64,000 bases of DNA, from assembly GCF_014042165.1 (NCBI RefSeq), contig NZ_JACDZE010000005.1, positions 1 to 64,000 of the forward strand, written 5' to 3'. This DNA comes from Moheibacter lacus. Lineage in GTDB: Bacteria > Bacteroidota > Bacteroidia > Flavobacteriales > Weeksellaceae. The notes beneath the pieces were generated by a model that had not been told where the DNA came from, made no database searches, and saw only the letters and a program-made list of their open reading frames with translations. The position numbers and the translations under genes are program-made. Shown piece by piece: positions 41,772 to 49,645 of this stretch. Each line of letters starts with the position of its first letter. Position 1 is the stretch's first letter.

Positions 41772-43208
41772 TTATTCTTTGATAAACTTTTTATGTTCAA
41801 CCGTATTTCCTGATTTAATACGAAGGATATATACGCCTTTTGGTAAATTACTGATGTTGATCTGTGCTTGTTTGGAAGTAACGTTTTGTTGGCTGAAGAC
41901 TCTTCCGTCCATTCCTAAGACATTTACAGAATCAATTGGTTTATCAAATGCTACATTAATTGTATTTTTTGCAGGATTTGGATAAACGGAAAGAATTGAA
42001 TTCTCCCTATCATCAAGACCCAATTCGGTATTAATTCCAAAAATCGTTTCGTAGGAATTCCCGCCAAAAGTTGCCGTTATCGTATACACACCGTCTATCC
42101 AGGTATTATCCGTTGCAAATTCCCAAAATCCATACGATGTCGGATAAAAATCTCCCCAATCACACACCCAATCCCAACTGTACATGATGTCGCCATTTGG
42201 ATTTTTAAATTCGATATGTGTAGTATCTCCATGATTGATATCTCTGAAAAATAATTTCAAATAGAGCATATCACCCGGGATGAAATTGATTTTTTCATAA
42301 GTATTTTCAACGACCGGACAGTCTACATCCTGCGTTGCAACCGAATGCGTAGAAATCGTATTGATTCGTGGAACGGCATAAGCCTCTTGTACCTGCCACC
42401 AACTGTTATCATTCATGGAATTACAATCTCCGGTATAAGGATCGATGACATTGTTTTCGCTATCCCGCACTTCGAAATGCAAATGCGGAATGGTGCTGCT
42501 TCCTGAACTTCCGGCTACGCCTAAATATTCGCCAGCCACAACCGTTTCACCGATTTCCTTTTCATTCAGCGTATTTTTTTTGAAATGCATATAAATGGTT
42601 TGAGAACCGTCTGCATGTTCTATCACAAATCCATTCCAATTTGGATTCCCATTATTCAAACAGTTTTGATCGAAATGTCCATCTCTTTTGTTCACGATAA
42701 TTCCATCAGCTGCGGCGACCACTTCCATGACATTTTCATCCATTCTTTTCCATGGATAAGGCCAAAGAATATAATCCGTTCCCTGATGATTTCCCGTTGC
42801 CCAGTCATAGGTACGATCACCACAATTATAATCCAATAACTGGTTGTTAGGCGTTAAATTCTGGTCAACTTGATTTTGTAACGTATGGTAACCATATTCG
42901 TCAAGTCCGGATTTTGGTTGATAAGGATCTACAAACATCACAGTTCCACCGCCTAAATTTGAAAAAGCATCAGGGTTATTTTGTAAAATGATGGCTTTGT
43001 TCTGAGCGATTTCGACTTCCATCTGAAATCGAGCTTGATCGGTTAAACATTCTGAATTTTCAAATTCTACCGAAACAAATTTGGACGACTGAATCGAAAC
43101 ACCCGGAGTCGAAAAAATTACTTGATTTGAAATGTCATGGAAACGTTCTTGAACTTGCGCGCTCATAAAAATGGGAACGCACAAAAAATGGAGTACTAAT
43201 CTTTTCAT
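41772..43208 (-). CDS. Secreted M23-family peptidase with T9SS type A sorting tail
   Basis: 478 residues with a signal peptide (MKRLVLHFLCVPIFMSAQ). The catalytic domain lies at ~150-265: GNHQGTDYILWPYPW with the first zinc His/Asp, then GVAGSSGSSTIPHLHFEVRD with the HxH zinc motif. The Lysostaphin-type fold cuts peptidoglycan peptides or glycine-rich proteins. A beta-sandwich domain follows, then the type A tail (SVYPNPAKNTINVAF... to KKFIKE). It reaches the cell surface or medium by type IX secretion. The gene lies directly upstream of the beta-propeller gene on the same strand, probably in one transcript. Confidence 0.88.
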   Translation of the reverse strand: MKRLVLHFLCVPIFMSAQVQERFHDISNQVIFSTPGVSIQSSKFVSVEFENSECLTDQARFQMEVEIAQNKAIILQNNPDAFSNLGGGTVMFVDPYQPKSGLDEYGYHTLQNQVDQNLTPNNQLLDYNCGDRTYDWATGNHQGTDYILWPYPWKRMDENVMEVVAAADGIIVNKRDGHFDQNCLNNGNPNWNGFVIEHADGSQTIYMHFKKNTLNEKEIGETVVAGEYLGVAGSSGSSTIPHLHFEVRDSENNVIDPYTGDCNSMNDNSWWQVQEAYAVPRINTISTHSVATQDVDCPVVENTYEKINFIPGDMLYLKLFFRDINHGDTTHIEFKNPNGDIMYSWDWVCDWGDFYPTSYGFWEFATDNTWIDGVYTITATFGGNSYETIFGINTELGLDDRENSILSVYPNPAKNTINVAFDKPIDSVNVLGMDGRVFSQQNVTSKQAQINISNLPKGVYILRIKSGNTVEHKKFIKE

Positions 43209-46807: not shown

Positions 46808-47743
46808 GTGAAAAATCTATCATTCCTCATTGTCCTCACATTTTTTATTATCACCTCTTGTGCTTCTCAACCTCCAAAAATCATCAAAGAAGTGGTCAGA
46901 GATACCGTCGTCATCAATAAGATTACGGAACGATATGAATCTGCAAGAATTGCAAAATTGGACAATTATAAAATTTCGACTTCCCACTACCCTGCCAAAG
47001 GTCAAGACGAACGCATTAGGTTTTTAGTGATGCACTACACAGCTTTGGATAACGAAAAATCTTTAAATGTTCTGACCCAACAAGAAGTTAGTTCCCATTA
47101 TTTAGTTCCTAATGACCGTACGGACTCTATTTTTGTACTCGTTGATGAAACCAAGCGCTCTTGGCATGCCGGTGCCAGTTACTGGAAAAATGTAAACAAC
47201 ATCAACTTTTCTTCTATCGGAATTGAAATCGTCAATTTCGGGTACTCGACCGCCGATCCAGTTTCTGGAGATCCCGATTTGGCTTTTACACAAAGAAACT
47301 TTTATGATTTTCCAAAAAATCAAATCGATAAAGTAGCTGAATTGGCCAAAGACATCATCGACCGATATAATATAGAACCGGTAAATGTTTTGGCGCATTC
47401 AGATGTTGCCCCACAGCGCAAACATGATCCAGGCCCAAAATTTCCTTGGAAAGAATTGTATACCAAACACCAAATAGGCGCTTGGTATGAAGATGCACAA
47501 AAAAATATATTTTTAGGTCAATTCCCTTATGCAGAAAAGGATTCTACTTCCTTTATCCTATCCGTTCAACAAGATTTTGAAAAATACGGATATGAAATTC
47601 AAAAAACCGGAATCTGGGATACCCAAACCCAAAAAGTCATCACGGCTTTCCAATATCATTTCCGTCCGGAACGTTATGATGGGATTTTGGATGCCGAAAC
47701 CTGGGCGATTTTAAAAGCTTTGATACTGAAATACAGAAGTTAA
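46808..47743 (+). CDS. N-acetylmuramoyl-L-alanine amidase, lipoprotein (AmiD-like)
   Basis: 311 residues from a GTG start. Signal and lipobox FFIITSC with Cys ~18, so it is anchored in a membrane. The Amidase_2 domain (~60-220) contains MHYTALDNEKS (first zinc His), SWHAGASYWKN, and the second His/Lys patch in HSDVAPQRKHDPGPKFPW. The last ~70 residues form a PG_binding_1 domain (KTGIWDTQTQKVITAFQYHF, ILDAETWAILKAL). Cleaves the lactyl-alanine bond of peptidoglycan or recycled muropeptides. Spaced 3 bp before the deformylase-like gene, forming one operon. Confidence 0.9.
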   Translation: MKNLSFLIVLTFFIITSCASQPPKIIKEVVRDTVVINKITERYESARIAKLDNYKISTSHYPAKGQDERIRFLVMHYTALDNEKSLNVLTQQEVSSHYLVPNDRTDSIFVLVDETKRSWHAGASYWKNVNNINFSSIGIEIVNFGYSTADPVSGDPDLAFTQRNFYDFPKNQIDKVAELAKDIIDRYNIEPVNVLAHSDVAPQRKHDPGPKFPWKELYTKHQIGAWYEDAQKNIFLGQFPYAEKDSTSFILSVQQDFEKYGYEIQKTGIWDTQTQKVITAFQYHFRPERYDGILDAETWAILKALILKYRS

Positions 47744-47746
47744 AGG

Positions 47747-48379
47747 ATGAAACTATTTTTAGCCATTCTGATTTTGGGTTTTGGGTCAAATTCATTTGGA
47801 CAAAAATTTGAAAAAATATCAGAAACCGAAAAACAATTGATTGGATCGAATTCGACCGAAATGATGCGGGTTTATAACAGAAATTCCCCAACTGATTCCA
47901 TCACATTAAAAGCCATTTCCCATCCGATTAAACCCAAAAACAAATGGACCCAAGTTTTAGCTGAACGCATGCTTCTCTCTGTAAAAAATGAAGGTGGAGT
48001 AGGCATCGCAGCACCTCAAGTCGGCATCAACAGAAGGATGGTTTGGGTTCAAAGATTTGACAAACCGGAAAAACCATTTGAATTGTTCATCAATCCTGAA
48101 ATCATTTGGCAATCTGTATTGATGCAAAAAGGACCAGAAGGTGATTTGTCATTTGATGAAAGAGGTTTGGTGATGCGTCATTACGCTATTCAAGTTCGTT
48201 ATCAAAATTTAATTGGTGAAACTTTAACTGAGATGATGGAAGGATTTACGGCGGTAATTTTCCAACATGAAAGGGATCATTTGGATGGTATTTTATTGAC
48301 AGATCGAATCAAAGAACAAGAAAACATGAATTTTGAACCATCTTCTGTTAGGTCTAATTTATATTATCTTAAAAACTAA
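47747..48379 (+). CDS. Exported peptide-deformylase-like protein (motif-2 Cys replaced by Asp)
   Basis: 210 residues. Unlike ordinary peptide deformylase it has a signal peptide (MKLFLAILILGFGSNSFGQ), so it is likely periplasmic. Motif 1 GVGIAAPQVG (84-93) and motif 3 HERDH (174-178) are intact. Motif 2, normally EGCLS with a metal-binding Cys, reads EGDLS with Asp133. The metal ligand set would be His-His-Asp. Canonical deformylase works on nascent chains in the cytosol, so this copy probably has a different role, perhaps an amidase or peptidase of envelope substrates. It follows the lipoprotein amidase with a 3-bp gap, which supports a cell-wall role. Confidence 0.8.
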   Translation: MKLFLAILILGFGSNSFGQKFEKISETEKQLIGSNSTEMMRVYNRNSPTDSITLKAISHPIKPKNKWTQVLAERMLLSVKNEGGVGIAAPQVGINRRMVWVQRFDKPEKPFELFINPEIIWQSVLMQKGPEGDLSFDERGLVMRHYAIQVRYQNLIGETLTEMMEGFTAVIFQHERDHLDGILLTDRIKEQENMNFEPSSVRSNLYYLKN

Positions 48380-48427: not shown

Positions 48428-49645
48428 GTGAACAAGCAATTTATCCTTTTCTTATTTTTGATTTTAAGTACATTCTCATTTGGACAAATTATCAAATACG
48501 ATACTTTACGCGAAACCCAATACGCGGCGTTGCCTTATTACAGCTATGGTAAAGGTTTGGGATTGACTTCTCCTGATAGCATTTTCCAATTGAACATACG
48601 TTTCCGTATGCAAAACAGAGCTACATTTTATGAAGATGAATTTGGAGATGAATCGATCGATGCACAAATCAGAAGATTGCGTCTTCGTTTCGATGGTTAT
48701 GTGGGAAATCCGAAATTCATGTATTCCATCCAGCTTTCTTTTGCACCGGAAGATGTAGGTGAATTGGAAGATGGTGGCAACATCAACATCATCCGAGATG
48801 CAGTTGTAGTCTATAAACCAAATGAACATTGGGATTTCAGTTTTGGACAAACCAAATTACCGGGAAACCGACAACGACTCAATTCTTCTGGAGGATTACA
48901 ATTGACCGATCGAACGATCAACAATGCAAAGTTTAACATCGACCGAGATTTCGGTTTACAGATTCACAATACGAATGAATTTGAAGATAAATTGTCCTAT
49001 AATTTCCGTGGATCTATTTCCATGGGTGAAGGAAGAAATTGGACGGACAATAATGACACCGGTCTAGCGCTTACCGGTAAAGCGGAGCTCTATCCATTTG
49101 GGTCATTTAAAAAAACTGGTGCTTATTTTGAAGGAGATTTGATGCGGGAAACCAAACCGAAATTGATGCTTTCTGCCGCTTATAGCCAAAACAATCAAGC
49201 CAAAAGAGAAAGAGGACAATTGGGCAAGGAATTGTTTGCTTCCAGAACCATGCGTTCCGTTTTTGGGGATTTGATTTTTAAATATGACGGTTGGGCGTTT
49301 ATGTCTGCTTTTATGACCAGAATGGCAGATGATCCGGTTACGGTCAATCCTGAAGATGCAAATGACATCCGCTATGTGTTTGTCGGAAAAGGAGTTGATT
49401 TCCAAGGGAGTTATTTGTTCAAAAATAATTTTGAGGTCATCGGCAGGTATTCTAACCAATGGGTGGATGATGAAATCCGAAATTTCGAGCCCAATACACA
49501 ACAATTCAGTTTGGGCCTTACCAAATACATTTGGGAGCATGCTTTCAAACTTCAAGCAGAAGCAACTTACGAAACGCACGATTACTTTTTGGATGAAAAC
49601 ACCAACAATTGGTATGTTCGTTTTCAGGTAGAAATTGGGATATAG
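48428..49645 (+). CDS. Phosphate-selective-porin-like outer membrane protein
   Basis: 405 residues, GTG start, signal peptide (ending TFSFGQ). The mature protein is a beta-barrel of the OprP/OprO group: QLNIRFRMQNRATFYEDE, RLRLRFDGYVGNPKFMYSIQ, FGQTKLPGNRQRLNSSGG and the C-terminal RFQVEIGI ending in an aromatic-poor residue. It would pass small anions, with phosphate or polyphosphate a family possibility. The stop is followed by a terminator at 49672-49697. Its neighbour at the end is the structured element and dnaK. Confidence 0.8.
   Translation: MNKQFILFLFLILSTFSFGQIIKYDTLRETQYAALPYYSYGKGLGLTSPDSIFQLNIRFRMQNRATFYEDEFGDESIDAQIRRLRLRFDGYVGNPKFMYSIQLSFAPEDVGELEDGGNINIIRDAVVVYKPNEHWDFSFGQTKLPGNRQRLNSSGGLQLTDRTINNAKFNIDRDFGLQIHNTNEFEDKLSYNFRGSISMGEGRNWTDNNDTGLALTGKAELYPFGSFKKTGAYFEGDLMRETKPKLMLSAAYSQNNQAKRERGQLGKELFASRTMRSVFGDLIFKYDGWAFMSAFMTRMADDPVTVNPEDANDIRYVFVGKGVDFQGSYLFKNNFEVIGRYSNQWVDDEIRNFEPNTQQFSLGLTKYIWEHAFKLQAEATYETHDYFLDENTNNWYVRFQVEIGI

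Follow-up and report, generated by a model that had tools for sequence, protein, structure and literature searches.

A predicted exported peptide-deformylase-like protein with aspartate in place of the metal-binding cysteine in Moheibacter lacus

The locus and its gene product

Our analysis concerns a stretch of 64,000 nucleotides from Moheibacter lacus (positions 1 to 64,000 of the forward strand of contig NZ_JACDZE010000005.1, assembly GCF_014042165.1), hereafter the window, in which a gene for a peptide deformylase (PDF)-like protein lies between genes for a lipoprotein amidase and a porin-type protein (Table 1). The preliminary description of this open reading frame, which placed Asp133 at the position of the metal-binding Cys and read motif 1 and HERDH as intact, is borne out by the sequence.

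Table 1. Features of the PDF-like gene and its neighbours, with coordinates in the window
Feature	Coordinates	Strand	Basis
Upstream lipoprotein, Amidase_2 and PG_binding_1, 3 bp before the gene	46808..47743	+	Sequence, profile match; linkage seen only in Moheibacter
Gene for predicted exported peptide-deformylase-like protein, 210 aa, EGDLS form	47747..48379	+	ATG start, ORF, profile and AF2 model
Signal peptide, residues 1-18, predicted cut Gly18/Gln19 (Q-rule)	47747..47800	+	Sequence, script scan, PMC5837995
Motif 1, GVGIAAPQ, residues 84-91, including Gln91	47996..48019	+	G84, G86 and Q91 each 103/103 in EGDLS proteins
Motif 2, EGDLS, residues 131-135	48137..48151	+	Sequence and residue conservation counts
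Codon GAT, Asp133 replacing the metal-binding Cys	48143..48145	+	Codon reading; alignment column of 164 family proteins
Motif 3, HERDH, residues 174-178, two His ligands and Glu175	48266..48280	+	H174, E175 and H178 each 103/103
Downstream Porin_O_P-type protein	48428..49645	+	Profile match, locus comparison

By profile and fold the window protein is a member of the PDF family, yet it lacks the Cys ligand that defines the family. The Pfam profile Pep_deformylase (PF01327) matches it at 9.4e-35, with 119.9 bits against a cut-off of 22.8, and the NCBIfam equivalog TIGR00079 scores 109.3 bits (cut-off 103.95); automatic annotation by this equivalog would name an exported, ligand-swapped paralogue 'peptide deformylase'. 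An AF2 model of the mature protein, built from 54 aligned sequences and holding no metal, has a pLDDT of 96.6 and a pTM of 0.92. Comparison of this model with the PDB (997 chains aligned) gave a Z of at least 8 for 161 chains, and all of the 50 entries listed are PDFs by title, the top match being the PDF of T. maritima (1lme_B, Z 23.2, rmsd 1.2 over 146 residues). Motif 1 keeps its two Gly and the Gln and motif 3 has the HExxH form, while motif 2, which in PDFs reads EGCLS and supplies the Cys metal ligand, carries Asp133. The codons for residue 133 are TGY where it is Cys and GAY where it is Asp; the swap thus takes two base changes, which rules out a single base error as its cause, and the recurrence of Asp at the aligned column across the family makes it more than chance.

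The protein begins with MKLFLAILILGFGSNSFG before the predicted cut and Gln after it, a typical Bacteroidota signal. The Q-rule for signal peptide cleavage in Bacteroidetes (PMC5837995, excerpt) makes a cut after Gly18 the most likely, so that of the signal peptide earlier given as residues 1-19 the signal itself stands, while its extent becomes residues 1-18.

The lipoprotein amidase said to lie 3 bp upstream is present as claimed. It precedes the PDF-like gene in all five Moheibacter genomes that carry the gene, and the porin follows in four of the five (not at L116); Moheibacter sediminis, of the same genus, carries the family gene as well, the protein from genome G461 (L115) being identical to that on a contig named as M. 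sediminis (L004). Neither amidase nor porin was found at any non-Moheibacter relative's locus examined, where the flanks mostly span about 1.2-1.5 kb. The amidase had been taken as a clue to the role of the protein, a use that its confinement to the loci of five Moheibacter genomes does not bear out: the neighbours differ between groups, and the context therefore names no substrate. At 67 loci (for example L257) a signal-bearing protein with an FGELH motif, which we take to be ChaN-like, is encoded upstream on the same strand, with a gap of 188-333 bp to the gene at the eight loci measured. At 20 loci of a fusion described below (the group of L191 and L209-L230) the upstream gene lies on the opposite strand and is presumably YqgF-like. 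Within the window, positions 41772-43208 on the reverse strand encode a protein that has a signal, a stretch reading HLHFEV and an end resembling a type IX sorting domain, presumably a secreted M23-type peptidase.

Conservation, export signal and origin of the aspartate

Within its taxonomic family, relatives of the window protein (E<=1e-20) are present in 245 of the 320 genomes and 10 of the 33 genera. Of 196 genomes drawn from across the order, 22 had a match below about 1e-40 (among the 29 listed for the window's family), and all 22 hold at least one further PDF match; ten more genomes yielded the family gene in nine, each of these also with an EGCLS PDF, and a fragment only in the tenth (G464). 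M. lacus itself follows this arrangement: in its genome (G000, 2.77 Mb, 13 contigs) PF01327 matches one further protein, which has 196 aa, EGCLS and no signal (C1:1413374-1413862), so that the cytosolic EGCLS copy, whose existence the preliminary description left to be checked, does exist. A formyltransferase C-domain match is found elsewhere in the same genome. Beyond the window's own order, matches occur in 23 of 151 genomes of the order of genome G808, which we assume to be Sphingobacteriales. In 19 of these 23 genomes the PDF-like domain is preceded by a stretch with a PYCAYS..CP.PP-type motif; in the one such protein scanned (L191, from G808) that stretch is DUF1684 (PF07920, 5.6e-44).

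The loci provided 164 distinct family proteins, which are a sample of the matches, and the residue-133 column was counted in them without selection on the motif. Only two residues occur there, Asp in 105 proteins and Cys in the other 59. In 121 other distinct PDFs the same position is Cys in 118, Ser in three and Asp in none, two further fragments that do not cover the position standing outside this count. Second PDF-like genes on alphaproteobacterial contigs (L064, L021 and L019) carry an EEAS-type motif in which Ser stands where the metal Cys would be. Two family rows are damaged: L178 (genome G427) is an EGDLS gene broken by one in-frame TGA, and L116 (G463) is an EGDLS copy of which one run is masked in the assembled sequence. 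Without them the set comprises 103 EGDLS, 52 EGCLS and seven DGCLS proteins.

Across the 103 EGDLS proteins the residues G84, G86, Q91, E131, G132, L134 and S135 are each invariant, as are R144, Q173, H174, E175, D177, H178 and G181; variation is seen at Ala89 of motif 1 (Ala in 99 of the 103) and at residue 176 of motif 3. Among 120 pairs sampled out of 1186, 50 had a usable dS (0.15<dS<1.5), and these close pairs give a median dN/dS of 0.051 (0.016-0.147). The window gene has no partner close enough for this measure, with a dS of 1.8 to L003 and an undefined value to two others. The invariance of ligand and catalytic residues, a dN/dS of about 0.05 and the separate cytosolic EGCLS enzyme together suggest that the EGDLS protein is maintained and probably catalytic.

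Whether the EGDLS form is always exported, a point raised in the preliminary description, can be answered from the signal: our own script finds one with Gln at +1 in all 103 scorable EGDLS proteins, and we consider their export almost certain. The 52 EGCLS relatives divide by the same script into 37 with a signal and Gln, six with a lipobox and nine with neither, and the DGCLS relatives have a lipobox in seven of seven. Of the nine script-negative proteins, four (L163, L169, L277 and L295) visibly carry a signal, the N-terminus of L105 is hydrophobic but has no Gln, and none is seen in L007, L008, L009 and L227. The signal-less proteins, which are three close relatives (two from Myroides, one from a Flavobacteriaceae MAG) and L227, all keep the Cys in EGCLS. 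The predicted export signal is therefore wider in the family than the Asp. The earlier claim that Asp goes with export as such fails on these counts, and export as a simple cause of the Asp is rejected: many signal-bearing relatives keep Cys, which means that a protein can be exported without the swap. The script gave no hits in 114 other PDFs, a weak control, since many of these are proteobacterial, where the Q-rule fails, and since signals without Gln are missed, as in L018. This last protein, from a Parachlamydiales MAG, is a PDF of the EGCFS form whose signal-like N-terminus lacks Gln, and is perhaps an independent exported PDF.

A quick tree with the ligand column kept places one change to Asp, and a careful tree with that column removed places two, with one change in 16% of 200 bootstrap trees. 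The two changes follow from the position of the Moheibacter group, which is placed, with weak support, beside the Cys-form proteins from the order of G808. A single Asp clade is not rejected (p-AU 0.316), and the Asp has perhaps one origin or two. An EGDLS gene on a Flavobacterium solisilvae contig (L005:4989-5627) groups with Moheibacter in the tree (62% identity), and may reflect either horizontal transfer or contamination.

Cysteine, formylated N-termini and the proposed role

From residue 28 on, 101 of the 103 EGDLS proteins are free of Cys, and over the same span the metal Cys is the sole Cys in 43 of the 59 Cys-form relatives; it is the sole Cys in 25 of 111 canonical PDFs, which were chosen as EGCLS. 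Among the other proteins at the fetched loci, 66 of the 75 with the same kind of signal are Cys-free and 22 of the remaining 176, all of these counts resting on related sequences that are not phylogenetically independent, with many of the control neighbours homologous to each other. Since exported neighbours are mostly Cys-free as well, Cys-freedom is weakened as a PDF-specific sign, and the Asp form fits what looks like a general tendency of these bacteria to keep Cys out of their exported proteins. The DGCLS lipoproteins (L135-L141, genus g75) have two additional Cys, which align with residues 127 and 189 of the window protein and could pair as a disulfide.

The Cys ligand of PDF is a known target of oxidation. 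H2O2 oxidizes it along with the iron, and it must be reduced for reactivation; in E. coli without Grx1 and Trx2, PDF activity under H2O2 is no worse (PMC10751367, excerpt). NO nitrosylates PDF at Cys90 (PMC7683392, excerpt), and type 3 PDFs have been proposed as perhaps suited to oxidative stress (PMC12690207, excerpt). Formylated N-termini outside the cytosol, which the preliminary description had held to be absent, have likewise been described: SRP keeps signal sequences of the SRP type from being deformylated, and fMet can persist on N-out proteins (PMC5454389, excerpt), while the proteins that generally escape PDF are said to be membrane or exported ones (PMC12690207, excerpt). The SRP block means that N-termini which still carry the formyl group can arrive at the membrane and on its outer side.

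From the literature on Cys oxidation and SRP-blocked deformylation, and from the catalytic residues kept in the family, we propose with about even confidence that the EGDLS protein is an extracytoplasmic metallo-deformylase for formyl groups missed by the cytosolic enzyme, in which Asp replaces the peroxide-sensitive Cys. In this model the window protein would be exported, cut before Gln19 and folded as a class I PDF, holding one metal by His174, His178 and Asp133 instead of by two His and a Cys. With Glu175 and Gln91 it would hydrolyse the N-formyl groups that the cytosolic PDF had left in place, its substrates being signal peptides after their release and also N-out membrane or exported proteins. 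The ligand would have changed from Cys to Asp because the metal-thiolate oxidizes easily and is hard to repair outside the cytoplasm. Of the components of this model, an active metallohydrolase is probable, a redox reason for the swap is somewhat more likely than not, and a formyl-peptide substrate is slightly favoured.

A ligand set of two His and an Asp is typical of other HExxH zinc hydrolases, such as ordinary zinc peptidases, and together with the amidase upstream in five of five Moheibacter genomes it gives some credit to a neofunctionalized envelope hydrolase, whose site would cleave another amide, in a peptide or a cell-wall cross-link, alongside the amidase. We consider this unlikely, as the amidase is at no other relative's locus examined and the PDF-specific residues are invariant in the EGDLS proteins. 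Their pocket residues also stay hydrophobic, with F167 and I171 each in 103/103 and Val or Ile at position 170 (V170) in 103/103; we assume that these three align with the methionine pocket of PDF. A catalytically dead or regulatory pseudo-enzyme, binding formyl-peptides only, would accord with the Salmonella PDF, where Cys90 is needed for activity and C90S gives no rescue (PMC7683392, excerpt), and with some type 3 PDFs whose motif changes leave them weak or inactive (PMC12690207, excerpt). It is nevertheless rather improbable for a protein that retains Glu175, both His and Gln91 in 103/103 cases, whose close relatives are under strong purifying selection, and in which Cys was swapped for another metal-binding residue and not for an inert one. 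The accessory PDF of Vibrio cholerae that reduces actinonin susceptibility (PMC12690207, excerpt) offers a precedent for a decoy that mops up actinonin-type PDF inhibitors outside the cytoplasm and shields the essential cytosolic PDF; this is decidedly improbable here, since the presence of a relative in 245 of the family's 320 genomes fits a housekeeping role better. That the protein is an ordinary cytosolic accessory PDF whose N-terminus is no real signal peptide, as the signal-less EGCLS proteins of Myroides, the Flavobacteriaceae MAG and L227 might suggest, is scarcely credible given the Gln +1 signal in all 103 scorable EGDLS proteins, the lipobox forms among relatives, and a Cys avoidance in EGDLS proteins like that of exported proteins.

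In the usual teaching, PDF works in the cytosol in association with the ribosome and requires its metal Cys. A conserved exported PDF with a natural Asp ligand would, if the proposed extracytoplasmic deformylase is real, mean that deformylation goes on after export. The Asp form would possibly provide an oxygen-stable PDF to study, and it offers a natural test case for the question why the usual PDF ligand is a Cys that oxidizes readily. We found no periplasmic, secreted, exported, extracellular or lipoprotein deformylase in the literature searched, which leaves subscription journals mostly outside, and no report of a C90D peptide deformylase, for which an older Cys-ligand mutant study may exist in those journals. 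In its available portion, a 2025 survey of accessory PDFs describes no exported PDF, its one mention of the periplasm concerning a plasmid signal (PMC12690207, excerpt). On a wider and more tentative scale, Bacteroidota might have an undescribed class of extracytoplasmic PDFs that remove fMet from exported proteins and signal peptides once these have been translocated. In one or two lineages this class would have made a thiol-free, peroxide-proof site from HExxH and Asp, and formyl-peptide signals outside the cell could as a side effect be fewer.

Comparison with known deformylases

The cytosolic enzyme of the same genome shares PF01327 and an HExDH motif with the window protein, and differs from it in having no signal, in its EGCLS and GVGLAAPQ motifs, and in overall sequence (29% identity, alignment A1). 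A structural counterpart to our AF2 model is the class I type b PDF of A. baumannii (6jf3 series; 6jf3_B, Z 23.1, rmsd 1.1 over 143 residues), which has the fold in common with it, a GVGIAAPQ-type motif 1 and an HExDH motif 3; relative to this enzyme the window protein has Asp for the Cys ligand, an N-terminal signal and extension, and predicted export. Type 3 PDFs are, like the window protein, accessory proteins with substitutions in conserved motifs. They are characterized by substitution of motifs I and II and by low or absent activity, whereas in the window protein motif II is substituted and motif I is intact; they are described as weak or inactive, that of T. brucei being active, and the available portion of the survey describes neither a signal peptide nor an Asp ligand for them (PMC12690207, excerpt). 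A further comparison is with the predicted exported or lipoprotein Cys-form relatives in Bacteroidota, which belong to the same subfamily as the window protein, carry a signal or lipobox and keep the catalytic residues, and which differ from it in having EGCLS or DGCLS and, in the one member checked, a fusion to DUF1684.
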